In this document: one piece after another, positions 28,550-64,000 of the stretch | Position numbering within the stretch: the stretch's first letter is position 1 | How the letters are laid out: each line of letters starts with the position of its first letter | Assembly (NCBI GenBank): GCA_038049695.1 | Contig: CP142451.1 | Coordinates: 66,159,501-66,223,500, forward strand | Reading direction: 5' to 3' | DNA length: 64,000 nucleotides | From: Cinnamomum chago | Taxonomy: Eukaryota > Streptophyta > Magnoliopsida > Laurales > Lauraceae | Notes under the pieces: model-generated | What the model was told of the DNA's origin: nothing | Seen by the model: only the letters and a program-made list of their open reading frames with translations | The model's database searches: none | Program-made: the position numbers and the translations under genes

Positions 28550-31500
28550 TGTTAGATTGTATGTCCTCAATCCGGTAGATGATCCGAATAAATTGATTTA
28601 TTCTTTAATTGTTTTATATTTTCATGCTTTATTCATGTGATGAATGGTGTTTTATTCTGTGATCGCACATAACCAACACAAAATGACATGATTGCTCATG
28701 AGATGAACCGGAGATGAACCGGAGCCTACAACTGTACTTGATGTGAACAATGTGTGTGGATGAGATCCACATGCAAGAGACAAAGTTTACAGATTTTATA
28801 CTTAAAGTATTCTCACAACCAGTGATGAGATTGGGTATTTCATCTGACAAGGTTGCAACACTATGATCATTTTGAGATAGTGTGGTTCATCAGAGTGTAA
28901 GACTCTCGATCATTGTGCTGGTACATTAGATGTAATGAAAGACCTTATGAAAATCTATCTTTGATTAGGGACTGCTCTCATAATTCCCAAGCAATAGGAT
29001 CTTAATCCTTAGAGATTAATGAACTCAAGTTTCTACTATGCATTTACTTTGAGTTACTAATGAGTGAGGCCAACCATAGGTGAACACCTTGGTGTCTTGG
29101 GTACAAGGTAGTAGGACTATAGGAACATATAATTCTGAAGATGGAAGCTATCTTCTAAGAGAAAAATATCACCTCGTGCCAATTAATAGATTTATTATTG
29201 GTAAGAGCGCACTCATATCAATTAAGAGTTAATTGGATGGTACTGATGATCATTGTGATTAATTGGGTCACAAGGATAATAAGATGTGAATCTAATTTGG
29301 TTGGACATATTTATTCCAATGGATCTATGTATATAATTGATGGAGGGGTCCACTTGTAGTAATTGAGATGTTCAGGATATTCTTATAAATATTCCTAAGA
29401 TTGGAGTGCAATTGCATTTATAGAGGAATTGAAAGTCCAGGATCCGAACCATAAGGGGGGGGGGGGGGGGGGTGAGCTTCAAAATAGTGACCAATTATGA
29501 CCTATTTTAACTTTTTTAATTCAATTAGTCACAAGTGATGATATAGAACTAAAATGCGGAAGCTAACAAATAATCATCACAAAGAATTCACCATAACACA
29601 ATGATTTATAGTGGTTCGGCCTCAATGCCTACATCCACTACCGGCTTGTGATCCAACACCCCACCGGATTTCCACTATCTATGCTTTTCAATAGGCTAAC
29701 CAATAACCTTTACAATATGCTTTTCTAAGGATAAGCAATAACCTAAACACTATGCTTTTCTAAGGCTAAGCAATAAACCTAAACACTATGCTTTTCTAAG
29801 GCTAAGCAATAACCTATACACTATGCTTTTCTAAGGCTAAGCAATAACCTTTACAAGTGAAGATTTCTCAAAGAAAATATCTTTACAAACACTCTAAGAG
29901 ATACAATATAAGCTCAAATACAATGCCTCTAAAACATGCAGATATGAAAGTGTAAAACAAACTCACACAACTCTCTATGTAATGCAAAGATGAATGCACA
30001 GGATGTATGTGTGTGATCGAACTTCAATCAAAGTTGAAAGTGAGGCTCAAATGATATGTGCTCAAAGCATTTCAAAGTTTGAAGAACAGAAATAATTAGA
30101 TTGAAGTTGTATTGCAAATCACATATTCTTTTTCAAAAAGACAACTTGTAAAGATTTCAATAATCAAGAAATGCAAGTTGTACGAAGATTTAAATAATAA
30201 GGAACATGTAATGAAGGAGCAAAGTTGTTTTCATAACTTAAAGATTTATATGAGATAATAGAGTGAAAACAACTAGTTAAAGACTCAACCAAGTAGAGTA
30301 ATCATGCATCTAATGAAAACAAGAAAGTTGAAGTAAGCATGATTTATATAAGAAGGCAATGACTTGGTATGAGACTAAGTGATGAATCCTATAAAGAATA
30401 AATCAAAGATAATGTAGAGGGTTCAACTCATCAAAGTTAGCATGTTACAAGAAATTTTCCAATAAGATATATTAGCATGTAACAAATGAGAAGAGCAAAG
30501 CTTACTAAGATGTTTAACTTATATCAAGCTTTGTCTCTTCAAGATGTTTCCCTTGCTCCTTTGTGTTAAACTTGTTCTTGGGTTTGAAAAATGTTCAGAA
30601 GAAAAACTCCCAAGATTGGTCTCCAAGAAGACTCTCTAAAGCTCTCTCACAAAACAAGGAGTGAACTTCTTAAATAAGAAAAACAGAGTCCAACGGATCT
30701 CTTGTCGGTCGACCGACAAGGAGGGTTCGGTCGACCGACCCCCAATGGTCATAAATTTTTGAAACAATTCTCTTGTCGGTTCACCGACACTCATTCGGTC
30801 GACCGACATGGGACCGACACCTGACCGACAGAGTAAAAAGGACTGAAAGTAAGCTCTCTGGAAACGGAACCGACACAAGGTTCGGTCAGGAACTGGAACA
30901 GCTTCGGTCGACCGACAACCGACTGACAAGCTGACCGATAGAAAAACAGCTTGCTGGAAATGGAACCGGCAAAGGCTCGGTTGAGCTCGGTTCCTATGTC
31001 GGTTAGCTGAGACTTGACCGACAAGCTGACCGACAGAGAAAATAGTCAGAAGATCTGAAGGTTTTGCCTAGAAAATCTTTGGAACAAGGATTAACACAGA
31101 AAATAAAAAGATTTCTAAGCCAAATAAAAATACATTTTGACACAAAATGAAATCAACCAAAGGGATTTTGAATAAAACAAGATAGGGTTAATTTTCAAAC
31201 AAGATTTTCAATAAATCAAAATGCAATGTTGAGATTAGGTGATGTGATGAAAATGAATGCATGTGTTAACCATCAAATTGCAAACTACATAGATCTAATA
31301 GGAATCCCTAGTGGTCCCCATGCTAGCCCTAAAAAGAGAGTTATTAATTCAATTGGAACTCTTAAAGGAAGGAGGAGTAGGACACATACTTATAATAGAA
31401 GCAAGACTCCTAATTATAGGATAACAGGAGGTTCACGTGCTATATATTGAGGAGAGGGGGCTGGACATCCAAGGCATCTCACACGCCCAAGTCCCCCTCT

Positions 31501-33075: not shown

Positions 33076-33712
33076 GTCCATTCATTTCCAACCTTTTTCA
33101 AGGCTTGATACATGAACTTTTGAGACCATATTGGAGCCAAAGAAAGGGGAAGAAGTTGGAAAGGCTAGAGGGCAATTTGGAAATCAAATACTTGAGTTTT
33201 AAAAAGGTACACTTTACTTGTATTTTGATTTCCATTAAAATTAGAATCTATGCATGTTTAAATCTTTGTATTTTCTTTTATGCATGATTTCTAGTTTGTA
33301 AAGAGATGTTTAGCAAACTCAAATCATCTTTGGTAAATTAGTTTGGTTTGCAAACTCTCTTATCCTAATCACATGTGTTCTTAGACTTTAACATTCATAC
33401 AACTTGTTTATTTCATTTTTTCAAAGTTGTTTGAATCTTTTATGTGATTAGTTTTCTCTTCAATCATCATTTTATAAGCCTTGATTTTAAAATGCATCAT
33501 GCATTCATTTAAGAGCTTCATTGTTGAATTTGATTGAAGAAAAGCATTCATACACTTGTGCACACACTTTAACTTGTTTTAGTGTATGATTGTAATTGGA
33601 ATTTCACTTTCACATTAGCCTATTTAAGAGGCAATTCCATTGTGCTTAAATTGTATCTCTTGGAGTGTTCTTTTGTGAAGACACCATCTTAGAGAAATAT
33701 TCATTTGTAAAG

Positions 33713-33872
33713 GTTATTGCTTAGCCTAAGAAAAGCATCTTGTAAGGTTATTGCTTAGCCTAAGAAAAGCATTTTGTAAAGGTTATTGCTTAGCCTAGAA
33801 AAGCACATTGAGAGGTTGTTGTTTAGCCTACAAAAACAACATTGTAAGGGTTATTGCTTAGCCTAGTAAAAA
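33713..33872 (+). repeat. mini-hairpin tandem units with AGCCT loop
   Basis: Five direct units of about 30 bp. Most read TTGCTTAGCCTAAGAAAAGCAT, in which GCTT pairs with AAGC around the fixed loop AGCCT. In one unit the arms are instead GTTGTTT (33818-33824) and AAACAAC (33834-33840), still complementary. Confidence 0.8.
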
Positions 33873-37990: not shown

Positions 37991-38304
37991 TGTAGAAAAA
38001 TTAGGCCAATACATGTGAAAAAATGTCAAGAAAAATATCAAGGAAGAAAGAAGCAGGAAAAACCAGAAAACGCCCGAAAATCGACAACTGAAAGGGTCAA
38101 AAGTCCCCATGGTCGCCGATGACCTTGGCCCATGGTTGCCGGCGACCCTGGAAATCTGGGTCGCTGGATTTCTACCAAAAACTCATTCTAGGTCCCTTTT
38201 TACATTTTGAGATGATTGGCCTCTGTGATTTTCCAAAATTTTGGTTTTCGACCCACAAAATCCGTCGATCTTTGTTAACATCACAGATCCGCCGTTGGAA
38301 TCTG

Positions 38305-40519
38305 TTAGGAATTTTGTAGATTGCAATTTGATGGATGCATAATCATTCTAGCATCATTTGATTTACACACATATGCATTGATTTATAAAAACTTGAAATC
38401 TTGTTTTATTCATGCATTGCTTTTAAGATTTGTAAAAGTATCAATTTATGCATGATTTTTTTTTAAAACTTGGATGCATTTGTTTTTGAAAAGAGTTTTA
38501 GAAATCAAGCAAGCCTTTGGTTTTAAAGTTTTGAATCATCTTAAGCTTTTTATGTTCATGTTTTAAAAACCCTTAGAATGTTTTAAAACATGTTTTTCAG
38601 CTTGGTTTAGTGGCCCAAAAGTTCCCCAAAGAAATACTTTGAAAACATGCGATTTTGGGAATTTTGGTCCTAGGGGGTCGACCAGCAGTGTGGCTGGTCG
38701 ACCGGCCCAGAGGACCCGGTCGATAGGCCACACTGCAGTTCGACTGGGTCACTGTACACCAACAGATCCTTTTTTGACCGTTGTGTGTACCCGGTCGACC
38801 GGGCCCTGTCATGGGGTCGACCGGGGACTAGCCGTTGGGCAATTTTTTTTCTATAAATATGAGTTCTTTCCTTTGCCAAAAGTTAGGAATTTTAAGGCCT
38901 TCCTTGAGGGGTTTTGAGGCATATCAAAGGGAAATGAACTAAGGGATGAAGGGGATCATTAGGAAAGCTAAAGCTTGGATTAATGAAGTTAAATCTCCAA
39001 GTAGGCTCTACTTTCCTTAATCATATGCTTTCATGCTTTGTTTTATTTTTGGTAAATCATTTGTAGCATGATAAGCTATGTTGTGTTGTATCCTTAACAT
39101 GTTTTATGTTTTGAATTGATTTATTGTTTTGGATACATCACCATTGATTCAATCCAAGTAGTACTTTATCTTTGGTAAATCTAAGTAGATCATGTTAATG
39201 AAAGAACCTTTGAAATTATATGTAACATGATTCCTATACTTGGTTGAATCTATGGTTGTTGTTTTTCAACATAAGAAAATCACTTTCAAAACTATCTTAT
39301 GTTTTGGATTCAACTTCTTTACAAATCATATGTTTTCATGTTTTGTTTTATCTTTGATAAATCTTTAGTAGCATGTTAACCTATGATGTGTTGTATCCTT
39401 AGCATGTTTTATATTTTGAATTGATCTATTGTTTTGGATGCATCACCATTGATTCAATCCAAGTAGTACTTTATTTGGTAAATCTAAGTAGATCATGTTA
39501 ATGAAAGAATCTTTGAAATTATATGTAACATGATTCATATACTTGATTGAATCTTTGGGTGTTGTTTTTCATCATAAGAAAATCTCTTTCAAAATATATC
39601 TTATGTTGTGGATTCAACATCTTTACAAATCATATGGACTTTTGTTTTAAAGTTTCACAACTTGCATTACTTTGATAGGTATATCTTTATCAAGTTGTTT
39701 TTATAAGTTCATATGATTTGTCCCCTAATCTCAATCAAATCTATTTTTATGTTTTATGAGCTACATTGTTAATTTGATTGACATCCCTATGCAACACATG
39801 TTTAGAGCTAATTAATTTCATACAACTTGTGAATCTTTGATATCTTTAACAAGTTGTTACTTTTAACATGTGACTTGCATTCCTTCCTCAATCATAAATG
39901 TTTTATGAGCTAAAACTTTCAAAAGCCTTAGGCATACATTTATGAGCTTTCATTTTCTAAATGATTGAGGACATCATACACACATCATGAGCATACATCT
40001 TTGCATTCATTTAGAGTGTGTGTGAGTTAGTTTTTCACTTCCATATCCGCCTATTTAAGAGGCATTGTAATGAGCTTAATTGAATCTCCATCAAGTGTAT
40101 TATAGACACTGACTTAGTGAGATAACCAACCTTGTGGTTGAAGAGGTTATTGCTTAGCCTATAAAAGCATAGTGTATAGGTTGATGTTAAGCCTTGAAAA
40201 ACATCATTGTAAAGGTTATTGCTTAGCCTTGAAAAGCATATTGTAAAGGTTATTGCTTAGCCTATTGAAAAGCATAAATAGTGGAAATCCGGTGGGGTGT
40301 TGGATCACAAGCCGGTAGTGGATGTAGGCATTGAGGCCGAACCACTATAGATCCTTGTGTGATGGTGCTTGCTTTGTGGTGATTGTTTTCATTAAGCTTC
40401 CGCATTTTGTTTGATAATCATCACCTGTGACTAGTTTGTTTTAAAGAAGTTAAAATTGGTCATAAATGAAGCTCACCCTATTCACCCCCCCTCTAGGGTT
40501 CGGATCCCAGGACTTTACA
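38305..40519 (+). repeat. C/D 5' LTR
   Basis: 2215 bp from TGTTAGGAATTTTG to GGACTTTACA. It contains the palindrome cluster (38675-38830), a TATA box CTATAAATA (38851-38859), a long stem-loop-rich stretch (39040-40000), AGCCT-loop units (40141-40277) and the conserved ATCACAAGCCGGTAGTGGAT block near its end. Confidence 0.92.
40141..40277 (+). repeat. AGCCT-loop units in the C/D 5' LTR
   Basis: Direct units of about 30 bp. Three have GCTT/AAGC arms. One has GATGTT (40183-40188) and AACATC (40200-40205) around AAGCCTTG. The arms differ between units but stay complementary within each. Confidence 0.8.
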
Positions 40520-40521
40520 AG

Positions 40522-40536
40522 TGGTATCAGAGCGGG
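40522..40536 (+). other. primer-binding site of the C/D element
   Basis: TGGTATCAGAGCGGG lies two bases after the LTR end, complementary to the 3' end of plant initiator methionine tRNA. Confidence 0.9.
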
Positions 40537-40805
40537 TTACTCCATTTTAGGGCTTAACAACCCGGAGTTGATCCTTGCTAGATTTGAACCATAGTGTTGT
40601 GATTTATTGCATATCTTTTTAAAGATTTCCACTATGTTTGAAAATGAAAATTTCCCCTAGTATCTTTGCACCACTCTAAGACTTGTTCAAGTTATATCTC
40701 CAAGAGTTGGTGAGTCCTCAAAGTTTACTCTCAAGGACATCCTTTTCAAGACCTTAGGTGAATCTTTATTAGTACACTTTTAGACTAACCTTAAGGCCTT
40801 GATCC
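40537..40805 (+). pseudogene. remnant leader and Gag-like tail
   Basis: The stretch after the PBS has no open frame of note. Its end (about 40755-40800) aligns with the last 15 codons and stop of the 468-codon frame that ends at 63276, ending in the shared AACCTTAAGGCCTTGA. The rest of that frame is deleted here. Confidence 0.6.
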
Positions 40806-40811
40806 TCTCTA

Positions 40812-42990
40812 GATCAACCTATTCTTTTATAGTTAAATCTTTTTGTTGGTCTTTGTTACATTTGCATTTTGTTTCTTTATAGTCACATCTTTTAAAATGC
40901 AAAGTTTCGTTGTGATCATTTGATTTTGTCTTCATGAACTTTTAAGTTATATCTCATGGCTTTCAAAATCCCTTGATTGCAATATTTTCATGATGGATTT
41001 GCATTTTGTTCATATAGTCATATCTCTTGTAGTGCATATCTATTCATGATCAATTGATTGTGATTACAAAAGCTTTCATAGCTAGTTTTTTCATGATCAA
41101 TTGATGTTGGGAAATCATTTGATGATTGTCATAGTTAGATCCTTTTTGTAAATCAAATGATTTGAACCCATTTAAGTTTTCCATTGTTTTCTCAAGTTAT
41201 ATCTCTTGATATGGAAAATATGTGTTCAATTTGTATGAGTGTCTTTTGTCATATTTAGAATACAAATTGAAACTTTCTTGTTTTTCTAAATCACTTGCTC
41301 TTAATTCTATAAATGATTCTTTATTGGAATTTCAAATATTGAAGTGATTTGAGAAACTTTGGAAAATGTTCTAAGCTTTATTGTTTGTATTTATAGAAGC
41401 ATTTTCCTTAAATTTATTTCCTTGTGCTTAACTATGATTATATCATTTGGAAGGAAATAATTTTTACAAACAATTTGCATCTTTGCTCATTGAGTTACAT
41501 TTTTTATGCAAATTGATTTTAATGCCTTACATTGCATGGTTGGATTTGGTGTCATTGATTTGCATGTTTGTGCCTAACTTGGTACACATTTTTTTTCATT
41601 AATGCAAATTGATGTTTGTTTATGTGCTTTATAGTAAAATCTTGTATTTGAGCTTTTTAAGTACATATGTGATTTAATGTGCTAAGTTCATTTGGTTTAA
41701 ACCTCATATCCATTTTCCATTGCATTGTAAGCTTAGTACATTTGCTAAGAGTGGAGATGTTGCATGATAGATTAATCCCTTTAACTTCATACCTTCTTGT
41801 GTTTACATAGTCATATTCTTTTTGATAATATGGTATGAGTTAGATCTTGAGTGTTGATTGATCCTCTCTATGCAAATGTCAAATTGCTCTATGTATGGTT
41901 GTGATCTTAGTTATATTTGTAGAAACCATACTAGAACTAAAATCCATCCTCTATGCTTTCTAGTCATATTTGTTTTGGATGGTTATGATGTTGATTCATG
42001 TATTTTCTCTAAGTGATATCATCCTTATACATGTTTCAACTTCATAGTAGTGTTCTTGATCATATGAAACTCTTTGAAATCTATTCCTCATGTTTCTATA
42101 TGTTTGATGGATATCTTAGATGTTGAATTCATATGATTTTGATACTTTGAAAATTGCATGCATTACCAAGTAATATCCTTTTGCATTGCAATTTACCTTG
42201 TTCATCATTTTGCTCTATAGTCATATCTTTAAAAGTGATGAATATGCATTTATGATGCTTGATGGAATTTTGTGTTTATCACATTCTTGCTCTTTATCAT
42301 GTTGTCAAATTCAATTGGTTTCAATTGGTAAATTTTTCGATTGATTTGATTTCTTGTGAATGTGATAGACCATGTGTACATTGGTTTGAACTTGATAGTT
42401 ATATGTTTTCATTCCATGTCACATTCCATTAGCATCATAATTTTCATGATTGCCTCCTCCCTTGCTCATATAGGTATATCTCATGACCACCATGTTTATG
42501 TGTTCATAATATTGGTTGGTTATTAGTTGAGGTTGACTTCATGTTTGAATTTCATTTCACTCATTCTTGCACATTAATAGTCATATTTATTGATTGAATG
42601 AGATGATTTCAAAACCTTCATAGCATATGTTTTTCATAGTTAAATTATTTTGATGCTATGTTTAATAAACCCCATTTCATCATGGATAGCTCTAATTTGG
42701 ATTTTTCCTAATAGTTATATTTTTAAATCCATTTTAGAGTGATTGTGTTTAATAGACTTATCTTTAAATCTCAATTGGTATTCTTTGTTTTTCCAATTGG
42801 TATCCGTGATTGCTTTTCTATTTAGACCTTGCTTTCTTTTGGTAATTTGATCATATTGTGCTCTATAGTTAAATGAATCTAATCCTTTCCTTGAAGTTGA
42901 CCCTCATTTGGTTAAACCATCTACTTCTTGAATCAAATAGTTATATCTTGTCAAAAGTTTGACAAAAGAAGAGAATGGATTGAGGGGGAG
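40812..42990 (+). repeat. hairpin array, copy 1
   Basis: A chain of short inverted repeats, spaced about 50-70 bp. Examples (left arm / right arm): 40861-40870 / 40894-40903, 41112-41123 / 41152-41163, 41225-41236 / 41260-41271, 41414-41423 / 41451-41460, 41471-41480 / 41506-41515, 41787-41793 / 41832-41838, 41893-41900 / 41934-41941, 42619-42626 / 42653-42660 and 42690-42704 / 42725-42739. Arms differ between units. The loop usually contains a word close to AGTTATATCT or AGTCATATCT. No open reading frame spans it. Confidence 0.85.
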
Positions 42991-43177
42991 TGTAAACCTT
43001 CATAGGAAGTATTAGTTTTGATCAAATTGACCATTGGATTGACTTTGAACCTTTAGAGACTACTTCCATACATGATAGCCTGTTATGTATTTCAATTTCG
43101 ATTTCTTTTGTTAACAGGTGCTACTAAAAGGTATTTTCCTTATTTCATGTGTGTAGGTACCTTTGCAATTTAATGTC

Positions 43178-43548
43178 AAAGGGGGAGAGAGCATTCAAGT
43201 TCTCAAAAGGGTGAAGATAATGTGCAAGCTTCCTAAGGGGAGGTTTTGTATGATCTTCTACAGAGGGAGAGAATACATACCTTGCCAAAGGGAGAGAGAG
43301 GCATGGTCAAAGGGGGAGAGTTAATAGAAGAAAGAAAGCTTGGAAGCTAAAGAAGATGCTTGGCTAAAGAAAGAAAGATTGAAGAATGATCAAGCTCCAA
43401 GCATCATGAAGAATGAAGAAAAGAAAAGAGTCCAAGCTAAGAGAAGCATCCAAGAAGATTTCAAGACTTGTCCAGCTGAGGGGGAGCTGAAGACTTGGTG
43501 TGTTATTTCAATGGTGAGTGTGTTGCCATCAAATTGCAAAGGGGGAGA
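43178..43548 (+). other. series of polypurine tracts
   Basis: AAAGGGGGAGA-type tracts occur at 43178-43191, 43235-43243, 43262-43273, 43287-43301, 43309-43320, 43478-43486 and 43538-43548. The last lies next to the 3' LTR and is the expected plus-strand primer. The others are extra copies in the 360 bp before it. A 71-codon frame at 43340-43555 overlaps them and has no motif. Confidence 0.8.
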
Positions 43549-43549
43549 T

Positions 43550-44426
43550 TGTTAGGAAATTTGTAGATTGCAATTTGATGGATGCATAATCATTCTAGCA
43601 TCATTTGATTTACACACATATGCATTGATTTATAAAAACTTGAAATCTTGTTTTATTCATGCATTGCTTTTAAGATTTGTAAAAGTATCAATTTATGCAT
43701 GATTTGTTTTTAAAACTTGGATGCATTTGTTTTTGAAAAGAATTTTAGAAATCAAGCAAGCCTTTGGTTTTAAAGTTTTGAATCATCTTAAGCTTTTTAT
43801 GTTCATGTTTTAAAAACCCTTAGAATGTTTTAAAACATGTTTTTCAGCTTGGTTTAGTGGCCCAAAAGTTCCCCAAAGAAATACTTTGAAAATATGCGAT
43901 TTTGGGAATTTTGGTCCTAGGGGGTCGACCAGCAGTGTGGCCGGTCGACCGGCCCAAAGGACGCGGTCGATCGGCCACACTGCAGGTCGACTGGGTCACT
44001 GTACACCAACAGATCCTTTTTTGACCGTTGTGTGTACCCGGTCGACCGGGCCCTGTCATGGGGTCGACCGGGGACTAGCCGTTGGGCATTTTTTTTCTAT
44101 AAATATGAGTTCTTTCATTTGCCAAAAGTTGGGAATTTTAAGGCCTTCCTTGAGGGGTTTTGAGGCATATCAAAGGGAAATGAACTAAGGGATGAAGGTG
44201 ATCATTAGGAAAGCTAAAGCTTGGATTAATGAAGTTAAATCTCCAAGTAGGCTCTACTTTCCTTAATCATATGCTTTCATGCTTTGTTTTATTTTTGGTA
44301 AATCATTTGTAGCATGATAAACTATGTTGTGTTGTATCCTTAACATGTTTTATGTTTTGAATTGATTTATTGTTTTGGATACATCACCATTGATTCAATC
44401 CAAGTAGTACTTTATCTTTGGTAAAT
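43550..44426 (+). repeat. C/D 3' LTR, truncated
   Basis: It begins TGTTAGGAAATTTG after the PPT and matches the 5' LTR base for base over most of its length, with TATA box CTATAAATA at 44097-44105. It stops after TTTGGTAAAT, where the family B LTR begins. The remaining part of this LTR (CTAAGTAGATCATG...) is not found on the far side of the B complex. Confidence 0.92.
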
Positions 44427-47400
44427 TGTGAGAACCCGACCCCTAATCTCTTGGATAAGTGTTGTTTTATTTGTGGATTAGTTTCTTTTAGAGGGATTAG
44501 TATTTTTTGGGTTGAGTTTGTGAGCTAGAATGGTTTTTCTTCTAGTTTTGGGCTTTTAAGTGCTTTGGTAGCTTGTGGGGCCCTTTGGGGGTTCCCTTTT
44601 CGGCTTTGCATTTACTTGTGAGATTTTCCCGATTTGTTTCGTATTGTGTTTTTGGCCCGTTGCATTCATCTTGAGGAATCCTACAACTTTCATGTTGATC
44701 CCGTATCCATTTGAGAACCCGAAACCCGATTTCTTGGCCTTGAGGGCAAAACAGTCATTGCACACTAAATATGTACCCAAAACTCGATATTCTCGAAATC
44801 CGTGAAACATATACTTTTTGGAAACTAGATATTTCGACGATCATTTCTTCCTTCTTCGTCGAATTCATCCGAGGTCCCGAAAGAGATGATTTCAGCCACC
44901 CAAGTTCTTTAAGTTGTGGGACCCAAACCTCACTTGCTTATAAGAGGAACCCATCTCCTTCATTCATTTCACTCTTCATTTTCCAGCACAAACCAGCTGA
45001 ACCTAGGGTTCCTTGTGCTTCTCTTCTTCTTCTTGCTTCTTCATCTCCAAGCCACACCAATAGTTCATCAATCAAGAAATGGAGATCACCAACCTCTTCC
45101 TCATCTTGCAAGCTTTCCATTGATACCATTTGTGAAGAGAACCCTCCATCACAAGACTTCCTTTGAGCTTACCTTGTCCATTAGAGGACCTTGCAAGTAA
45201 GTGTTCTTCTTCATCTTCTAGATTTGTAATCTTCTAGCCTTAGAGAAGCTCCACCTTGATTATTGAAAGGTTTCATTGTCATTGCATTGTTTAACCCATT
45301 TTAGGGTTTGTTTTGGGGGTTTTTGTAGAGATTGTGGATCTTGAGCTTGAGAGGTGATTAGGAGCTTGATTTGCTTGATTAGAGTCAAAGGCAAGTGGAT
45401 GAATGGATTGTTTTGATTATTAACATGTTTTGTGAGAAAAATCTTGTTTCATTAAGGGTTTTGGTGATTTTAGTAGTTGTCTTTACTATGATTAATATTG
45501 ATTTCGAAATGTGCTTATTGATGAGTTTATTCCCTCTTGTTCATGCTTGGAAATTATATGCATCATATTGGCAAGGTTTCAAATGGTTTCACATGAATGA
45601 GTTTTCTCCACCTTGAGATTTGTTGTGAATGGAAAGAATGGAAAGGGAGAAACTTGAAATGAGGAGCTCTTTAGCTCATATCATTGTCTTGGAAACATGT
45701 ATTTTAGTCTTCTTGTTTATAGTTCTATGTGATTGTTTAAGTGTTGGAAAGGAAAGGAAAAAGAGGAGAAAAAATTCAGTTTCCCGGACCTGCTACACGC
45801 CCAGGTCCGATCGATCGGACCTACAGGCCGATCGATCGGTCTGTCTTTAACTGTAAGGCTTTTTGAGCCGATCGATCGGACTCCGTGTATAACTGGGACA
45901 GAAATTTCGGAAGTTTGAGTCCAGTGAAATTTGATATTGTTTTTTTTTGGAAACCTTTGGGCTTTCTATGAGTCCTAGGGGTATATACCTTAGTGTTAAG
46001 ACCAATTATACCCTAATCTAAGGTCTCTAAGACTAGGGAACTAAAAAGGAAAGAATGGTGATGATCTAGGCACTAATTCTCGGTTTTAGGTGGGACCCTG
46101 GCTACCCTCTTTGGACTGTTTGGACCATGTGTGAGAATGTCTTGAGCCGACACGCCTCACGGTTGGTTCGGTGGCATCGGAGTTCAATCCATTTCAATCT
46201 TGAACGGGATGGAACGACGCGATATCTTCTTTATATCAAAACACAAGTCTTTTCCTTGGTTATCGCGAATTCTATTCCTTTCGGTGACTGAATAGGTTGC
46301 TCGATGTTTCTGGATTAATGTCATGCCTAGGATGGACCGTTCATAATCTTGATTCTTTTCTATTGTAACATCTAGTACTACCCATAAGCTCATTTTAAGT
46401 TTGGTAAATCGAAAAGTGCATAAGGAGCCCGGAATGTCTTCAAACTCAAGGAGTACCAAGTAATTATTATAATCGACATACGGGACCCCTATTCACTTAA
46501 ATAGATCTTGAAACCGATATTTTTACCCGAAATTGTTATAGTTCATTGTTTCACCTCTTTTCCCGAGATTTGCATCACATGACTTGTTTCCCGAAAGCAT
46601 TGAAGTTACACTGGTAACAGTTATTTGTCCCGAAATGTATTGCCCGATATGAAGTGACAGTGTGCCCTTGAGCACCCCCGTTTTACCCATTTATTTATTG
46701 TACTTGATTTACTTGCATATGTCCCGATTTGTTATTTGACCTATGAGTCGGCATCACTAAGCTTGGATACCTTGTCGGTTTGATCCACCGACTTGGAAAT
46801 CCCTCTCCCGTCCCGCCAGCTGCAGTTTGGATCCCGATACCCGGTTATTACCGTGGTCCCGTCCCGATACCCGGTTCGCTACCGTGGTCCCGTTCCCGTA
46901 TATTTATATTGTAAATATGATTTACGTTGGGTCTCCTCACCTTGTGTGACTGAGACCAACGTCCCGTTATACTCTTGTCACTTCGGTGATAGAGGACTTA
47001 GCTTCTTGTGATTGCCATCTTGCCAGTTCCCGATTCCTTGGATACCCGACATGTTTTATATTGCTTACTTGCTTTCCGATAAATGATTCGTTTCCTTTAT
47101 GAAAGTTGTTATTTAAACAAGTGTTAATATTCTCCAATGTAAATTCAGTTATTACTATATTGCCTTCTGTTCTTTGTACCCGCACATGTTTTAAATGAAT
47201 GCCGGTTGAGCGAATACCCATGCTTTTACATATGTTTCACACGATCGATGGTTTTACTAGATTTATGTGATTACACATGTTTTAAATGAATACCCGAATT
47301 GTTAAATATCCGTGCTTTGTTTTAAATGACATTTGGCTTGTGAGATTCCTATGTTTATACCTGTTTTAAATGATTACCCGATTGTTAAATATCCATGCTT

Positions 47401-48454
47401 TGAAATATGTTTCAAATGACACTTGTTTGCCAGATCCCTACGTTTATACCTGTTTTAAACGATATCCGGTTTGTTAAATATCCATGCGTTGAAATATGTT
47501 TAAATGAACACTAGTTTTGTCAGATTTCTTTGGTTACACCTGTTTAAATGAACACCCGATTTGTTAAATATCCGTATTTCTACATAGGTTTCAAATGGAC
47601 ATTGGTTTTGCTAGACTGCTATGAATACCTGGTTTGTTGTATACTTATGTTTTTACTTAAGTTTCAAATGAACGTTGTTTTGCCATACCGCTATATTTAT
47701 ACATGTTTTAGACGAACACCCGATTGTCAAACATCTATGATTATAGATGATGTAAACGAACACATGTTTTATGAGATATTCATGTTTTACCCATGCTTGA
47801 AATGAATACAGGTTTTCCCCGAGATTCCCGACTTTGCACCCGTTTAATTATATGCAGCATTTGATCGAATAGCATGATTTATCTTATGTTTTTTCTTCAG
47901 TATATTTGTTATCTTTTCATCCACCTGCCAGACCGTCGTGTCTGACCCACTACTTTTGGTACTCAGGTTCAGATTTCTTCGTCCCGAGTTGAGTGCTTGA
48001 GTTGGCTGTGGAGCCATGTTTTGCAGGTTGTTTTGTCGGCTATGTCATGTAGACATTGAGCTTGACATCGGAGCTACGTCAAATTTGGGGTAGTAGTTTA
48101 TAGCTTATTGTTGTATGGCTTTTATTAGCCTTTTTCTTGGGATTCTTAATTAATGTACATTGATAATTGTAACTTGAACATATTTGGGAATGTATTATCC
48201 TGTTACTGTCAGCTCTGTAATTTATTGTGATGGTTACTCCAGTCTGATATGATTCTTGATATAATAGCTCTGTGCTAAAGGTTGAGTGCGACGCGGAATC
48301 CGATGGCCACGGACTTCGGGTCGCAACGCCACAAATGCTTCCGAAAAATATTCAGAATGTGTTGTCTTCACACACGCGGATCCTGGGAGAAGTATAATAC
48401 ATTTATGCTTAAATCCCATTCCCGCCCCCGAGGTTCCGGTTCGGGGGCGTGACA
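44427..48454 (+). repeat. family B LTR1
   Basis: 4028 bp, TGTGAGAACCCGACC to GGGGGCGTGACA. TATA-like TTATAAG lies near 44940. About 860 bp downstream is a palindrome cluster (45803-45880). A long stretch near 47180-47800 is a diverged tandem series with TGTTTTAAATGA and GATTGTTAAATATCC words. Frames inside are chance. Confidence 0.95.
45803..45880 (+). promoter_or_regulatory. GATCGATC palindrome cluster in LTR1
   Basis: Contains the perfect 20-bp palindrome AGGTCCGATCGATCGGACCT (45803-45822) and two further CCGATCGATCGG words (about 45828-45839 and 45868-45879). The copy in LTR2 (56205-56282) has one word altered to CCGATCAATCGG. Role unknown. Confidence 0.6.
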
Positions 48455-48457
48455 GAC

Positions 48458-48472
48458 TGGTATCAGAGCGGG
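48458..48472 (+). other. primer-binding site of family B
   Basis: TGGTATCAGAGCGGG lies three bases after LTR1. The same site follows LTR2 at 58860-58874. Confidence 0.9.
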
Positions 48473-49826
48473 CAGGTTTCTCGGAAATAAAACACTCTAG
48501 GAACCTTAAGACGTGTGGTGAGGACTCTTTTTCTTTTCTCTAGTTGTTTTTGTGAGTTTGTGCCTGTTTTTCTTCTAGTGGGGGAGACTATTTTTGTCTC
48601 CTTTTCTTGTCCTTGTTGTTAGTGAATTTGGGGGACCAAATTCTTTCTAGTGGGGGAGAATTTAGTGTCTCCGCACCCACATTTAGTTCCTTTTCCTTGT
48701 TTTCACGCCAGAGAGTCAGAGTTTTGTGGACTTAGCATGTGTTTCTCGAAGGACATGGGCAGAATTTTCAGCTTTTCGATGTCACAGATGGAGCTAGAGA
48801 AGGAATTTGCGACCAATTGTTCGTCAGTAAGGAATGTGAGCAGCATATGGAGACCCAATTACAGTTGATCGTGTACCGTCAGAGGATTCGTCAAGCAAGT
48901 AAGTGTGGATTTTTGGATAAACTTGGATTATTTTCCTAAGTCAGAAGACTCCATGAGCCGAATAAGTGGTAGACTTTATGAGGTTTGAAGTGATTTTCAG
49001 TGGTGCAGCTTCAAGAAGATGCGAAAAGTTAGAAATTTCTTGAGTATTGACGAGCTTGTGACAGGGAATTGTTGGAGGAGGTTTAACAGTTGCAGTTATG
49101 ATGGCGAGTCAACTCAGCAGGATGTTTCAGTGGATGATTAAAAGCATAGGAAATTAGTTTTCTGCTGCATTGTAGAGAGTTACATGTGGAATTGATTGTT
49201 ACTTGATCACATGTTGAGAAGATTTAGTGGACTTTACCGACTTGTAGAACATCAGTTTGGGGCAGAGTACAGATACAAGCAGGAGAATCATCACCTATGG
49301 ACAATGACAGTTGAAGGATTCAGAGAAGAATGAGTTTGTCAGAAGCACACCTCACGAAGTGTGGACATGTGGAGTAGCATGACAGTTAAAGTGTGGACGG
49401 GTCTAGTCAGAGCTGGAAACTTACAGAGCTGTGAACCTTGTGTTTTCAGTGAGCAGATAAAGATGAGTAAAGTGTTCAGAGAACCGTTCAAATATTTGAT
49501 TGAATCAGCTTGGTATATGAAGGAGTGACAGATTTCCAAGTCATTCACCTCGAAGATTGCGCATTGGCAGGAGGCCTAATTTCGACAACTTTGACAGAGA
49601 CGACAGAAGAGTACAGAGGACTGGACGACATTGCCTAAAGTAAGAGATATCTGGTAGTACTAAACGTCACCAATGTTCCGAAGTCAGGGCAGATAGAAGG
49701 ATAAGGCAATATTTCAAGGTAAAGACATGTCCAAACCGGCAGAGACCGACTGTTGTGCAGTGGACCAAGAGCAACGGACAGAAACAGTTAGAGCTTCAAA
49801 TGTTGAAGAATAGTGAAAGGACAAGC
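48473..49826 (+). other. family B interior, left part, non-coding
   Basis: No open frame with a recognisable domain. The stretch has GTGGGGGAGA tracts near 48580 and 48650 and a purine-rich style like a decayed gag, but no zinc knuckle or capsid motif is visible. It ends at the TSD of the nested LTR. The first 1.09 kb is repeated after LTR2. Confidence 0.7.
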
Positions 49827-52800
49827 TGTAAGTCATGGGGATCCGAACCCTAGAGGGGGGGGGGGTGAATAGGGTGAGCTCCAATTATGACCAATTTTAA
49901 TCAATTTTAACTTCTTTAAAACAAACTAGTCATAAGTGATGATAATCAAACAATATGCGGAAGCTAACAAAAGAATCACCACAAAGCAATCACCATCACA
50001 CAAGGATTTATAGTGGTTCGGCCTCAATGCCTACATCCACTACCGGCTTGTGAATCAACACCCCACCGGATTTCCACTATATATGCTTTTCAATAGGCTA
50101 AGCAATAACCTTTACATTATGCTTTCCAAGGCTAAGCAATAACCTTTACATTGATGTTTTTCAAGGCTTAACATCAACCTATCCCTTACGCTTTTATAGG
50201 CTAAGCAATAACCTCTTCAACCACAAGGTTGGTTATCTCACTAAGGTAGTGTCTATAAACACTTGATGGAGATTCAATTAAGCTCATTACAATGCCTCTT
50301 AATTAGGCGGATATGGAAGTGAAAATCTAATACACACTCACACTATGAATGCAAAGATGAAAGTACATGAAGTGTGTGTGTGTGGTCCTCAATCATTTTG
50401 AAAATGAAAGCTCATAAATGTATGCCTAAGGCTTTTGAAAGTTTTAGCTCAAAAACATTTATGATTGAGGAAGTGCAAGTCACATGTTAAAAGTAACAAC
50501 TTGTTAATGAGATCAAAGATACACAAGTTGTATGAAATTAATTAGCTCAAAACATGTGATGCATAGGGATGTCAATCAAATCAACATGAAGCTCAAAACA
50601 TAAAAATAGATTTGATTGAAAATAGGGGACAAATCATATGTAATTATAAATACAACTTGAATATGATATACCTATCAAAGTAAGGCAAGTTGTGAAACTT
50701 TTGTTAGGGTTTTTATAGATTACAATTTGATGGATGCATTATCATTCAAGCATCATTTGATTTACACACTTGCATTGGTTTTAAATAAACTTGAAATCTT
50801 GTTTTATTCATGCATTGCTTTTAAGATTTGTAAAAGTATTGATTTATGCATGATTTGTCTTTTTACCTTGGATGCATTTGATTTAGAAAAGAGTTTTTCA
50901 AGAAATCAAGCAAGCCTTTGTTTTAAACTTTTGAATCTTTTTAGGCTTTTTATGTCATGTTTTAAAAACCATTAGAATCTTTAAAACATGTTTTCCAAAC
51001 TTGATTTAGTGGCCAAAAGGTCCCCCAAAGCAAAACCTTCAAATATGCAAAAGTTGCATTTTTTGCAAAAAGGGGGTGTCCCGGCAGTGTCGCTGTCGAC
51101 TGAGACACAGGTCTCGGTCGACCGAGACAACTGCAGGCAGAATTTTGCCTGAAGCCCCAACGGTCAGAAATCTGACCGTTGTGTGTTCCCGGTCGACCGA
51201 GGCCTGTTTCCTGGTCGACCGAGGACTAGCCGTTGGCAACTTTTTGCTATAAATATGAGTTCTTTCCCTTGCCAAAAGTTGGGAATTTTAAGCCCCTCCT
51301 TGAGAGGTATTGAGGCATATCAAAAGGGAAAAGAACCAAGGGATGAAGGGGATTATTAGGAAAGCTAAAAGCTTGGATTAATGAAGTTAAACTACCAAGT
51401 AGGCTCTTCCTTCCTTAATCATATGTTTTCATGCTTTGTTTTATTTTTGGTAAATCATTTCTAGCATGTTAAACTATGTTTGTGTTGTGTCCTTAACATG
51501 TTTTATGTTTTGAGTTGATTTATTGTTTTGGATACAACATCATATGATTCAATCAAAGTAGTACTTAATCTTTGGTAAATCTAAGTAGATCATGTTAATG
51601 GAAAAATCTTTGAAATCACATGTAACATGATCCATATACTTTGTTGAATCTTTGGTTGTTGTTTTCCATCATAAGAAAATCACTTTCAAAACTATCTTAT
51701 GTTTTGGATTCAACTTCTTTACAAATCATATGTTTTCATGTTTTGTTTTATCTTTGATAAATCTTTTGTAGCATATTAATCTATGATGTGTTGTATCCTT
51801 AGCATGGTTTATATTTTGAATAGATTTATTGTTTTGGATACTTCACCATTGATTCAATCAAAGTAGTACTTTATCTTTGGTAAATCTAAGTAGATCATGT
51901 TAATGAAATATGTAACATGATTCATATACTTTGTTGAATCATTGGTTGTTGTTTTTCCATCATAAGAAAATCTCTCTCAAATGTATCTTATGTTTTGGAT
52001 CCAACATCATTACAAATCATATGTGTATTATTGTTTTAAAGTTTCACAACTTGCCTTACTTTGATTGGTAAATCTTTTTCAAGTTGTCCTTATAATTACA
52101 TATGATTTGTCCCCTCTTTTCAATCAAATCTATTTTTATGTGTTGAGCTACATTGATGATTTGATTGACATCCCTATGCATCACATGTTTAGAGCTAATC
52201 CATTTCATACAACTTGTGTAACTTTGATATCATTAACAAGTTGTTACTTTTAACATGTGATTGCATTACTTCCTCAATCATAAATGTTTTATGAGCTAAA
52301 ACTTTCAAAAGCCTTAGGCATACATTTATGAACTTTCATTTTCAAAATGATTGAGGACCACACACACACACTTCATATACTTTCATCCTTGCATTCATAG
52401 TGTGAGTGTGTATTTGTTTTTCACTTCCATATCCGCCTATTTAAGAGGCATTGTAATGAGCTAAATAGAATCTCCATCAAGTGTATGTTAGACACTAACT
52501 TAGAGAGATAACCAACCTTGTTGTTGAAGAGGTTATTGCTTAGCCTATAAAAGCATAGTGTATAGGTTGATGTTAAGCCTTGAAAAACATCAATGTAAGG
52601 TTATTGCTTAGCCTTGGAAAGCATATTGTAAAGGTTATTGCTTAGCCTATTGAAAAGCATAAATAGTGGAAATCCGGTGGGGTGTTGGATCACAAGCCGG
52701 TAGTGGATGTAGGCATTGAGGCCGAACCACTATAAATACTTGTGTGATGGTGTTTGCTTTGTGGTGATTATTTTTATTAGCTTCCGCATATTGTTTGATA

Positions 52801-54358
52801 ATCATCACTTGTGACTAGTTGGTTTTCAAGAAGTTAAAATTAGTTAAAATTGGTCATAATTGGAGTTCACCCTATTCACCCCCCCTCTAGGGTTCGGATC
52901 CCCATGGATTTACAACTTTAAAACAATAATACACATATGATTTGTAAAGATGTTGAATCCAAAACATAAGATACATTTGAAAGGGATTTTCTTATGATGG
53001 AAAAACAACAACCAAAGATTCAACCAAGTATATGAATCATGTTACATATTTCATTAACATGATCTACTTAGATTTACCAAAGATAAAGTACTACTTGGAC
53101 TGAATCAAATGGTGATGTATCCAAAACAATAGATCTATTCAAAATATAAGACATGCTAAGGATACAACACATCATAGGTTAACATGTTACTAAAGATTTA
53201 CCAATGATAAAACAAAACATGAAAACATATGATTTGTAAAGAAGTTGAGTCCAAAACATAAGATAGTTTTGAAAGTGATTTTCTTATGATGGAAAACAAC
53301 AACCAAAGATTCAACCAAGTATAGGAATCATGTTACATATAATTTCAAAGGTTCTTTCATTAACATGATCTACTTAGATTTACCAATTCAAGTACTATTT
53401 GGATTGAATCATATGGTGTTGTATCCAAAACAATAAATCAACTCAAAACATAAAATATGTTAAGGACACAACACAAACATAGTTTATCATGCTACAAATG
53501 ATTTACCAAAAATAAAAGAAAGCATGAAAACATATGATTAAGGAAAGTAAAGCATACTTGGTGATTTAACTTCATTAATCCAAGCTTTAGCTTTCCTAAT
53601 GCTCCCCTTCATCCCTTGGTTCTTTTCCCTTGAATATGCCTCAAAACCTCTCAAGGAGGGGCTTAAAATTCCCAACTTTTGGCAAAGGAAAGAACTCATA
53701 TTTATAGCAAAAAGTGCCCAACGGCTAGTCCTCGGTCGACCTGCAAAGAGGCCTCGGTCGACCATGAACACACAACGGGAAAAAAAATGACCGTTGGTGT
53801 TTCAGGGTGCAGTCACCCTGCAGTGGTCTCGGTCGACCGGCGACGCTGCCGGGTGACTGCCCTGGGACCAAAAAATCCATTTTTTGCACATTTGAAGGTA
53901 TTTCTTTGGGGAACTTTTTGGCCACTAAATCAAGCTAGAATAACATGTTCTAAGTCATTCTAAGATGTTTAAAAACATGAAACACACAAAGCCTAAAATG
54001 ATTCAAAAGTTTAAAACCAAAGGCTAGCTTGATTTGATAAAACTCTTTTCAAATGAGAATGCTTACAAAACTGATTCTGAAAATGATGAATGTATGCAAA
54101 GCTCAAACCTAAATTCTCAAAATGATTTTCCAAATATAATGCACAAAGAATTAGGTTTTCAAAAGAGTTTGGATTCTAAAACCAATGCATCCAAGTTTAG
54201 AACCAACACATGCATGAAACAATACTTTTGCAAATCTTAAAAGCTATGCATGTATAAAACCAGATTTCAAGGTTTTCTAAAACAATGCACGTGTGAGAAT
54301 TCAAATGATGCTAAAGTGAAAATGCATCCATCAAATTGCAAATACAAAATCCCTAACA
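49827..54358 (-). mobile_element. solo LTR of family C/D, minus strand, with another LTR nested in it
   Basis: On the minus strand it runs from TGTTAGGGATTTTG (54358) to a TTACA end (49827), with a perfect TSD CAAGC on both sides (49822-49826, 54359-54363). A plus-strand LTR (50702-52914) interrupts it. Without that insert its length is about 2314 bp. Family B interior continues on both sides, so it inserted there. Confidence 0.92.
50702..52914 (+). mobile_element. solo LTR of family C/D nested in the minus-strand one
   Basis: A 2213-bp LTR from TGTTAGGGTTTTTA to ATGGATTTACA with a perfect TSD ACTTT (50697-50701, 52915-52919). It contains a hairpin with perfect 11-bp arms (51158-51168 and 51171-51181), a TATA box CTATAAATA (51247-51255) and AGCCT-loop units (52527-52660). 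Its neighbours are homologous DNA in the opposite orientation. Confidence 0.93.
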
Positions 54359-54363
54359 CAAGC

Positions 54364-61771: not shown

Positions 61772-61785
61772 TGGTATCAGAGCCT
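61772..61785 (+). other. primer-binding site of the second C/D element
   Basis: TGGTATCAGAGCCT lies two bases after the LTR, matching initiator methionine tRNA. Confidence 0.9.
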
Positions 61786-61869
61786 CGTGCTCTATCTTTT
61801 AGGATCAAGTGTTTGGAACTCTTGATTAGGTGTAAAAACCTAGAGTTAAAACCCTAGAGTTGTGTTTTT

Positions 61870-63276
61870 ATGAAAATCATGAGAATGAACTCCACTATGC
61901 TAGACCTTGTAGATTCTTCTAGACCTCTCATTCTTCCATCTATTGGAGATTCAAACATTCAATTAAAAGAATCTCAATGTGAATTAAAAGAAGAAGAAAT
62001 TAAAGAAAATGAAGAAGATCTTCAACAAGCCTTTGAGGAATTATATGAATTATCCTTAAAGACTGAAAAGAGAAACAAAAAGTTAAGAGAAGAATCTAAA
62101 AGACTAAACAAAGAATTAGTCTCTTCAAAAGATGAGCTTAGAGAGAAAGAAGAAGTAATACAATGTCTAGACTCTAAGTTCATGATCTCTTTAAATAATC
62201 TATCTGACATTCAAGATGAATTAAAAGAATTAAAGATGGATTATGATAATGTCAATAAGGAAAATTTAAATCTAAGAGATCAAATAAAAAGGCAAAATGA
62301 AGACATTGACAATTTAGAATCCAAATTGATTAAAAGTAAGTTAAAAACTCAAGAACTTGGATCTAATGTCATCAATGAACTTAAACTTGAATTAAAACTT
62401 GCCAATGAAGAGCCAAGCAAATATAAGGAAATTGAAAATGAACTTTCAAAAGTCAAAAATGAAAATTCAATCCTTATAACCAAAGTCACTCAACTTGAAA
62501 GCTATAAACAAAAGTATGAGTGCAAATTTACCCAAGGAGAAGATAAATTTGAAAAATTATTTAGATTGGGTAAATCTAAAGGAGATAGGACAGGTCTTGG
62601 ATTTAATAGGAATTTGTCATATGACCCTAAATTCACCAACACTTTTGTGAAAGGTGAGTCCTCTTTCTCTAGCACTATTTCTCCTTTGCCCAAAACCAAA
62701 TGTAATTATTGTGGCATTGAAGGGCATTTTTCGTTTGAGTGCAAACTAAGAAAAAGAAGCCATGTGTCTAAACCCATCTTTGAACTCAAAAATGTAGAAT
62801 CTAAATCTATGAAGGGTAAGACACTAAAAATCAAAGAAGACTCCAAAAAGACTAAACAAGGTAAATCATTTAAAATGGAGTCTCCTAAGATAGATTCTAA
62901 AAAGTTTAAACAAGTTAAACCAAGCTTGAAAGAATCTATGAACAAAAAGCTTCTCAACCTATCTCCCTTATATAAACCCATGAAAGAACTTTTGAATAAA
63001 GTAACAAAGTTAAATTTAAAATTTAAAAGTCAAGTAAAGGGAGAATATAAGAAGAAGAGAAAAATGAACAAATCCCCTAAGAATCAAACTCACCAACATC
63101 AAAAGACTAATCATCAATCTAAGCTAAATTTAGTAAAATCTAAATATCATGGTGATAAGTCTAAATTGAAAATTTATCAAGTCAAATCTCCTTTAGTTGG
63201 TGGAAGTTCCAAAATAGTCTCCAAAGCCCAAGACCTTAGGTGGATTCCAAAAGTTATTTACTTAGACAAACCTTAA
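61870..63276 (+). CDS. Gag-like coiled-coil / CCHC zinc-knuckle protein (468 aa)
   Basis: The only long intact frame of the window. It starts 85-100 bp after the PBS, as gag does. Residues of about 30-215 are a heptad-rich, Glu/Lys-rich coiled coil. Residues 278-291 are a CCHC zinc knuckle, CNYCGIEGHFSFEC (62701-62742), a nucleic-acid-binding motif of retroelement Gag. The tail (about 300-460) is lysine-rich and ends RWIPKVIYLDKP, which recalls the W-x-PK end of SIRE-type copia Gag. I see no capsid-type N-terminus and no protease, integrase or RT after it, so the element is non-autonomous unless pol lies beyond the window. The hairpin array follows 17 bp after the stop. The frame is open over 468 codons with low GC, so recent selection or recent insertion is likely. 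I infer RNA binding and self-assembly; a full-length capsid role is unlikely. Confidence 0.8.
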   Translation: MKIMRMNSTMLDLVDSSRPLILPSIGDSNIQLKESQCELKEEEIKENEEDLQQAFEELYELSLKTEKRNKKLREESKRLNKELVSSKDELREKEEVIQCLDSKFMISLNNLSDIQDELKELKMDYDNVNKENLNLRDQIKRQNEDIDNLESKLIKSKLKTQELGSNVINELKLELKLANEEPSKYKEIENELSKVKNENSILITKVTQLESYKQKYECKFTQGEDKFEKLFRLGKSKGDRTGLGFNRNLSYDPKFTNTFVKGESSFSSTISPLPKTKCNYCGIEGHFSFECKLRKRSHVSKPIFELKNVESKSMKGKTLKIKEDSKKTKQGKSFKMESPKIDSKKFKQVKPSLKESMNKKLLNLSPLYKPMKELLNKVTKLNLKFKSQVKGEYKKKRKMNKSPKNQTHQHQKTNHQSKLNLVKSKYHGDKSKLKIYQVKSPLVGGSSKIVSKAQDLRWIPKVIYLDKP

Positions 63277-63292
63277 GGCCTTGAACCTTTGT

Positions 63293-64000
63293 GACCAACC
63301 TATTCTTTTTAAGTTAAATCACTTTGTTGGTCATGTTGCATTTGCATTTTGTTTCTATTTAGTTACATCTATTAAAATGCAATGTTTCTTTATGATCTTT
63401 TGATTTTGTCTTCATGCACCATTCTAAGTTACATGTCATGGTTTTCAAAATCATTTGATTATAATTTCATCATGTTTAGATTTGCTTTTTGCTCACATTT
63501 AGTTTTATGTTTTGCATTGCATTTCTACATGACTAATTGATTGTGCTTTTAAAAGCTTTCATAGCTAATTTATTCATGATCAATTATTGTTGAATCATTT
63601 GTGTAGATGTCATAGTAAGATTATTTGAACAAATGATTTGAATCAATTCAAGTTTTTCCATGGATTTCTAAGTTATACTTTTATATGGAAAATCATTGTT
63701 TTGTAAAATCAACTTGTATGTGGTTTATTTAAGTTATATCTTTTAAAATACAATGTTGAAAATTGATCTTCAAAATCATTCTCTTTATGCTCATTGTTGG
63801 ATTTTGTTTATCAAAATGATTTGAAGATTGTTTGAATGGAAATGCTCTATAACTTCATTAGTCATATTCATCAAAGTATGTTCCATGTTCTCATTTCCTT
63901 TTCTTTTGGTTTCATTATCTTAGAATTGGAAATGAATGTTGTTTGCATCTTTGCTTATTTAGTTATTCTTTTTATTTGCAAATGACTATTGGTTCCATGT
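63293..64000 (+). repeat. hairpin array, copy 2 (continues past the window)
   Basis: Homologous to the start of copy 1 (40812 onward) but clearly diverged. Units: 63293-63299 / 63326-63332, 63342-63350 / 63374-63382, 63593-63602 / 63629-63638, 63654-63661 / 63685-63692, 63709-63719 / 63748-63759 and 63891-63898 / 63928-63935. Loops again carry AGTTAYATCT-like words. Order and spacing follow copy 1. Confidence 0.85.

Follow-up and report, generated by a model that had tools for sequence, protein, structure and literature searches.

In a 64,000-nucleotide stretch of the Cinnamomum chago genome (contig CP142451.1; hereafter the window), the internal domain of a long terminal repeat (LTR) retrotransposon, element A (window 38303-44426), carries a chain of hairpins in which the stems vary from unit to unit while a short word in the loop is shared. 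In each unit of this chain, termed array A, a short stem whose sequence is largely free presents the word in a loop of ~25 nt. On the sense strand the word has the core AGU(U/C)A and the extended form AUAGUYAUAUCU. The same signature is found in the gag-like open reading frame (ORF) of a second element of the family, element B, and both stems and loop word appear to be kept by selection. The reading we favour, though tentatively, is that the chain is a cis-acting, multi-copy structure under selection, one that would provide binding sites for Gag, in particular its nucleocapsid (NC) part, and serve packaging into virus-like particles. The open-licence literature, with the terms searched, yielded no LTR retrotransposon reported to carry an array of hairpins with a shared loop.

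A preliminary description of this DNA had proposed a hairpin chain of about 2.2 kb and listed seven perfect examples. All seven are present and six were correctly placed; the right arm AACCATAC of the remaining one begins at 41924, not 41934. Perfect inverted repeats with a loop of 8-50 number 26, 15, 7 and 6 for arms of at least 7, 8, 9 and 10 bp, compared with means of 10.8, 3.1 (3.06), 0.9 and 0.4 and maxima of 19, 8, 4 and 4 in 100 dinucleotide shuffles, the control that the description had itself named, and the chain is thus real. Hairpins with imperfect arms, scored in a strand-neutral way, present a more nuanced picture: 19 reach a score of at least 16 (null mean 12.2, maximum 19) and 10 a score of at least 20 (null 3.0, maximum 10), so these single counts stay within the range of the shuffles, whereas the summed score of 398 (null 224, maximum 342) lies outside it.

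Local folding of the sense strand gives z values of -8.1, -2.1, -4.2 and -2.5 for the four quarters of array A and -6.8 for array B, its counterpart in element B, against +2.9 to -1.1 for both strands of six control stretches and -0.4 for the tail of element A at 42991-43548. That said, array A is not the sole over-folded part of the element family, since the LTR is equally extreme (sense z -3.7 to -6.4). Other stretches, mainly LTRs from the same family, are equally rich in perfect inverted repeats, and the hairpin chain continues in the repeat and unique-5' (R/U5) part of the LTR and, in element B, in the gag ORF. A sliding 100-nt map of z is noisy, with arrays and LTRs raised on average and a few other stretches likewise. 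A chance origin of array A was rejected on the shuffles (arms and summed score) and on the rotation test of the loop word given below. An ordinary tandem repeat was rejected as well, Tandem Repeats Finder listing none within the array, in line with its earlier portrayal as the reverse of such a repeat. The companion claim, that the arms are unrelated and the loop shared, holds for the loop word and not for all of the arms, because ATTTGCAT is found four times.

The loop word is confined to one strand of array A. Sites matching at least 10 of the 12 letters of ATAGTYATATCT number 17 in sense and none in antisense, and AGT[TC]A[ACT]AT occurs 16 times in sense (null 0.54, maximum 4, n=300) and never in antisense. 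A strand-symmetric DNA site was rejected for this reason. The stem score at 22 word sites averages 17.95, compared with 14.0 across all positions, and is matched by 5 of 2167 rotations. Of the 23 sites with at least 9 of 12 letters, the 19 scored hairpins hold 10 in their loops (rotation p 0.0056), so word and hairpin are not always together; the word had been placed between most arm pairs, which captures its centring and overstates its regularity.

An unbiased scan covered the 297 gapped four-letter patterns that occur 8 or more times in array A, with array B and the gag ORF as a check, and AGTNA came out on top for association with hairpin centres (z 3.97). For the same pattern z is 3.30 in array B. 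In the gag ORF its z of 2.70 ranks fifth of 176, and the top pattern there, AGNTA, is closely similar. The motif AGT[TC]A was broadened to AGT[TCA]A after the gag loops had been inspected, and in this form centring is matched by 3 of 2180 rotations in array A, 4 of 716 in array B and 28 of 1402 in gag. When the sense strands of the two arrays and gag are combined, 30 of 42 AGT[TCA]A sites have a stem score of at least 16, compared with 69 of 344 elsewhere, a set that takes in the antisense strand of arrays and gag (Fisher 3.9e-11). Eight AGT[TCA]A[ACT]A sites in gag are strongly centred (1/1399 rotations), though this motif was picked post hoc from the loops. Against synonymous-codon shuffles, wider forms of the word are weakly raised in number in gag (p 0.008-0.08) and AGT[TC]A is not raised (p 0.21). 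Hairpins near the start of R and directly upstream of the primer binding site (PBS) also hold AAGTTAAA in their loops; both fold modestly alone (z -1.1 to -2.0), and the PBS-side hairpin of one LTR copy (L4) is without the word. Array A shows the many stem-loops and the common loop motif by which dispersed packaging signals are recognised.

The predicted fold is conserved between subfamilies. Arrays A and B are 72.7% identical, and when the A-B substitutions (25% divergence) are redistributed over positions bearing the same letter, the fold is lost, at -95.1 +/- 7.1 kcal/mol compared with -147.4 for the real B, a value that 0 of 400 simulations reach. In the reverse direction, the real A stands at -159.1 and re-dealt sequences at -96.6 +/- 7.4 kcal/mol. 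Thirteen distinct comparisons involving B-type, A-type and third-subfamily copies yield fold z values between -2.3 and -9.6; in none did more than 3 of 100 simulations match the real value. Conservation is weaker in the R/U5 chain (z -0.9 to -3.5, nine comparisons).

Variation within the A subfamily bears on both parts of the unit. The 21 copies compared were element A and 20 of 24 loci, the window copy itself (L001) and three tandem neighbours (L006-L008) of locus L005 being excluded. Variants shared by at least two copies occur at 0.070 per site in stems, 0.172 in loops and 0.149 outside, and private variants, present in one copy, at 0.151, 0.219 and 0.170. Compared with private variants, shared ones are thus depleted in stems (odds 0.56, p 0.003), as they are with two other reference copies (odds 0.51, p 0.0014; 0.64, p 0.017). 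Within loops, shared variants run at 0.046-0.072 per site in the AGTNA core and at 0.185-0.201 in other positions, and the comparison of all core sites with other loop sites gives p 0.0016-0.025; private variants too are somewhat rarer in the core (0.13-0.15 vs 0.21-0.23). These depletions, with the fold kept between subfamilies, lend partial support to the earlier suggestion of a stem-loop array with a recognised loop.

The second occurrence of the signature is in element B, whose internal part begins at window 61772-64000 with a PBS, the gag-like ORF and then the array. Against 120 synonymous shuffles, the fold of this ORF has z -5.8 in sense and -5.3 in antisense. Its translation contains a single CCHC knuckle that scores 20 bits, just below the Pfam cut-off of 20.8. 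Four relatives were found in other data sets, and both of those reaching the C-terminus (P0002, P0003) share its final LRWIPK stretch, followed by a stop. Searches of viral contig and genome contig sets with the protein, and of the viral contig set with two DNA patterns, returned no relatives.

By its sequence anatomy, element A is a non-autonomous LTR retrotransposon of Sirevirus type, a Ty1/copia lineage. Its 3' LTR is 98.4% identical to the 5' LTR across 878 bp. There is no recognisable pol, of gag only the final stretch is left, and array A occupies the place expected for pol. A Pfam search of the three sense frames of array A gave zero matches up to an E of 1, and thus no hint of a known domain in decay; an Rfam search of the whole window gave none at or above the gathering score. 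No ORF of at least 100 amino acids is listed between 40534 and 43549, in agreement with the long non-coding internal domain of large retrotransposon derivatives (LARD). A conserved predicted RNA structure, the other mark of that class, is seen in the 13 comparisons above, although the two strands keep their folds almost alike (see below). Subfamily B has the gag-like ORF and thus falls outside the non-coding definition.

Several Sirevirus features cluster around the 3' LTR. Five identical polypurine tract (PPT) octamers precede it, where Sireviruses have a mean of four; the last (43540-43547) starts 10 bp before the LTR, and the 14-bp left arm (43526-43539) of an inverted repeat borders this terminal octamer, the right arm lying at 43568-43581. 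An octamer at this distance and an inverted repeat bordering it are Sirevirus hallmarks, and an inverted repeat at the gag/pol boundary is mentioned for the group, in the accessible part of PMC2829016. In the unique-3' (U3) region (window 38685-38828) there are GC-rich palindromes with the core GGTCGACCGG and arms of up to 21 bp, similar to the CGG-CCG repeat motifs of Sirevirus LTRs given in the same portion of that source. A 34-bp tandem repeat (AGGTTATTGCTTAGCC...) lies near LTR 3' ends at 40144-40276, 33705-33865, 61309-61503, 52530-52662, 29679-29850 and 50082-50214.

Table 1. Positions in the window of the features of elements A and B.
Feature	Position	Strand	Remarks
5' LTR of element A, TGTTAGG...TTTACA	38303..40519	+	TATA-like box at 38852
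Hairpin near R start, AAGTTAAA in loop	38973..39002	+	copies 44233, 51385, 53571(-); fold alone z -1.1
Hairpin directly upstream of PBS, AAGTTAAA in loop	40426..40464	+	copies 52832, 49912(-); z -1.8
PBS TGGTATCAGAGC of element A	40522..40533	+	
Inverted repeat TCAAGACCTTAGG/CTTAAGGCCTTGA, end of gag remnant	40746..40802	+	kept at the matching place in element B
Hairpin array A	40812..42990	+	19-25 scored hairpins (two settings); shared loop word ATAGTYATATCT, core AGTYA
Example hairpin TTTGCATTTT/AAAATGCAAA	40861..40903	+	ATAGTCACATCT in loop
Example hairpin AAATCATTTGAT/ATCAAATGATTT	41112..41163	+	ATAGTTAGATCC in loop
Example hairpin TTCAATTTGTAT/ATACAAATTGAA	41225..41271	+	
Example hairpin TGTTCATCATTTT/AAAGTGATGAATA	42199..42244	+	ATAGTCATATCT in loop
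Five PPT octamers AGGGGGAG	42983, 43180, 43311, 43479, 43540 (42983..43547)	+	
Inverted repeat CCATCAAATTGCAA/TTGCAATTTGATGG, PPT/3' LTR junction	43526..43581	+	octamer adjoins left arm
3' LTR of element A	43550..44426	+	truncated at 44426 by another element
PBS of element B	61772..61783	+	
gag-like ORF of element B, 468 amino acids	61870..63276	+	over-folded; AGTNA in hairpin loops
Example hairpin within gag ORF	62304..62377	+	AAGTTAAAA in loop
Hairpin array B, first part	63280..64000	+	continues past window end

A number of results weigh against an RNA chain read through its loops, and they concern the strand, the word and the pairing. Folding as RNA is favoured because the loop word is sense-only. 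Single-stranded DNA, such as the cDNA, may nonetheless be what folds, because the antisense fold is conserved almost as strongly as the sense fold (difference z -0.8 and -1.3) and G-T pairs are not in excess beyond composition: G-T and A-C mismatches in stems stand at 11:9, 8:1 and 6:3, whereas base composition would give ratios of 1.84, 1.87 and 1.43 to 1. As for the word, centring of the narrower AGT[TC]A is matched by 4 of 2180 rotations in array A and 23 of 716 in array B, and by 179 of 1402 in gag, where it is not centred, so that the gag signal comes from the AGTAA form. In array B the 12-letter word, too decayed there to judge, shows no centring (187/709 rotations). In locus L059, a third array type ~79% identical to A, centring of AGT[TCA]A is weak (127/1195 rotations), and R/U5 has a single such site, not centred; hairpins thus also occur wordless.

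Column-wise covariation, suggested earlier as a check across family members, is modest and gave a divided answer. Stems from B tested in A have 93 of 109 pairs standard, compared with 85.0 expected (p 0.0004), and 6 double changes, compared with 1.5 (p 0.0016); stems from A tested in B have 106 of 125 standard, compared with 103.5 (p 0.11), and 2 double changes, compared with 1.0. With minimum-energy folds the figures are 178 of 217 pairs and 10 double changes from B, and 169 of 214 (p 0.03) and 7 from A, the two folds having just 105 pairs in common. Across 20 sequences (A, B, 8 A-type loci, 9 B-type loci and L059), pairs with double changes number 3-7 of 98-129, which 71-198 of 200 shuffles reach. 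The number of double-change cells does beat the shuffles (0-3 of 200 reach it), and 84-90% of pairs are standard in register, compared with 36-51% with slid partners. Within the A subfamily, whose 6% divergence leaves covariation too sparse, a double change is seen in one pair. Shared stem variants there disrupt a pair on 28 occasions and preserve it on 9.

With these points counted, binding of Gag/NC and packaging is still the explanation that we would put forward, with reserve. The folded strand would be RNA, and its loop words would be sites scattered along the molecule to which the nucleocapsid part of Gag binds. Gag itself would come in trans from an autonomous relative or from sister elements that carry gag. 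The non-coding RNA would thereby be collected, condensed and packaged, competing with full-length RNA for entry into virus-like particles. This is favoured because free stems with a fixed loop word, repeated many times in coding and non-coding parts, are the anatomy of dispersed packaging signals, for which the available portions of PMC3662417 and PMC6281560 describe many stem-loops, variable stems and one short loop motif. It is favoured also by the example of BARE2, a plant copia element without Gag whose RNA is packaged in trans (PMC3735527, in part). A more speculative extension, and a doubtful one, is that the lineage swapped its polymerase genes for a multivalent, loop-displayed array of Gag sites, giving a super-competitive parasitic RNA with very many copies. 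It belongs to the same doubtful extension that the lineage would be a dispersed packaging-signal system in an LTR retrotransposon, readable from sequence.

It is poorly understood how the Gag of plant LTR retrotransposons chooses its RNA and by what means non-coding relatives prevail in the competition for it; beyond BARE, the accessible part of PMC3735527 indicates, little is known of Gag RNA selection in these elements. Each RNA of the present family offers ~20 natural replicates of one candidate site, with stems and word apparently selected. Given these replicates and the many genomic copies, the question is testable with a short RNA and purified protein.

Other explanations would account for part of the same evidence. 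The loop word might instead be read by an RNA-binding protein of the host that governs export from the nucleus, stability or translation of the unspliced RNA, much as a constitutive transport element is. Identical anatomy and conservation would then be expected, and the word does occur in leader hairpins as well, but elements of the constitutive-transport type need fewer sites than those spread across 2 kb here, and the word in loops of the coding gag ORF fits genome-wide coating better; we consider this unlikely. Also rather unlikely is bulk compaction or protection of RNA or single-stranded cDNA by any hairpins, with the word a relic of a single hairpin duplicated in tandem long ago. The wordless hairpins that extend through R/U5 and U3, and the equal folding of both strands, are what it would predict; the depletion of shared variants in the AGTNA core of loops, as in stems, and the centring of hairpins on AGTNA in the non-homologous gag ORF are not.

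An origin without selection, in which template switching by reverse transcriptase at near-palindromes makes and repairs the hairpins, would suit the near-perfect, strand-neutral arms, the scarcity of G-T pairs and the fold excess in U3 and gag too. It is improbable in view of the conserved word at loop centres and of the rarity of shared relative to private variants in stems (odds 0.56, 0.51 and 0.64). Least credible is the proposal that the hairpins are substrates or decoys for host small-RNA silencing machinery: being cut would give no selection to keep them, and the array stems, mostly 7-17 bp, are short for dicing. Maize copia elements do have abundant miRNA-like structures with mapped small RNAs, but these concentrate in LTRs and the commonest shares a stem, CACCGGACNNNGTCCGGTG, the opposite of array A (PMC10760457, in part).

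In the genome as a whole (1.06 Gb, 14 contigs), the A internal domain has 8186 first-look candidates, unconfirmed as copies, and the 40 that were scored gave 42 match rows; the near-complete A copies among these 40 are 89-94% identical, the window itself aside. For array B there are 3730 such candidates, and the 40 scored are 93-97% identical besides the window itself. Relative to array A, B-type copies are ~71-80% identical over the first 700 bp, lack ~355 bp and are then 87-94% identical. This uneven identity and the missing block mark the subfamilies as mosaics, and the arrays change through recombination and the loss or gain of units. The ~355 bp absent from B-type loci L025-L054 corresponds to window 41513-41870. 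Among 12 loci around an LTR of the L6 type, 10 are without an array or gag match downstream, L059 has an array, and L061 has the gag end only, followed by a stretch that is not array.

Head-to-tail tandem copies occur at G000:C6:22532120-22582367 (10 A-type matches, spacing ~5.24 kb), C3:35124897-35148696 (5 A-type, ~5.19 kb), C5:42002673-42016392 (3 A-type, ~5.29 kb) and C10:46068021-46109559 (8 B-type, 5.73-5.87 kb). They are reminiscent of Cassandra, which is likewise found in tandem arrays. Within the window, 44427-49549 and 54829-59951 are a 5.1-kb direct duplication with 99.9% identity and a PBS in each (48458, 58860), and it is this duplicated stretch that truncates the 3' LTR of element A. 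At 49823-54366, a forward LTR copy (50702-52915) is nested in a same-family reverse LTR copy (52916-54366 plus 49823-50701).

Among known systems, the packaging signals of small RNA viruses (satellite tobacco necrosis virus, MS2, parechovirus, hepatitis B virus) resemble the array in their many stem-loops, variable stems and single short loop motif, in coding and non-coding sequence alike (PMC3662417 and PMC6281560, in part). Array A differs in its setting in an LTR retrotransposon, its dense 2.2-kb non-coding layout and its ~25-nt loops. LARD elements with conserved RNA structure were reportedly described by Kalendar in 2004. LARD and terminal-repeat retrotransposons in miniature (TRIM) share with element A a non-coding internal domain, presumed mobilisation in trans and conserved predicted structure, whereas the accessible text of PMC7215508 gives no shared loop word or repeated unit for them, and subfamily B keeps a gag-like ORF. 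Sireviruses share the multiple AGGGGGAG tracts, the inverted repeats at the PPT/3' LTR and gag/pol junctions and the LTR palindromes, though the available part of PMC2829016 mentions no shared-loop hairpin array. Hairpins in a Sirevirus are also known from maize, where LTR palindromes are tied to small RNAs; there the stem is shared and the hairpins lie in LTRs, whereas in array A the loop is shared and the stems vary (PMC10760457, in part). Finally, while no hairpin array is described for BARE2 in the accessible portion of PMC3735527, that element is, like element A, a Gag-less copia retrotransposon, and its RNA is packaged in trans with its packaging signals conserved.
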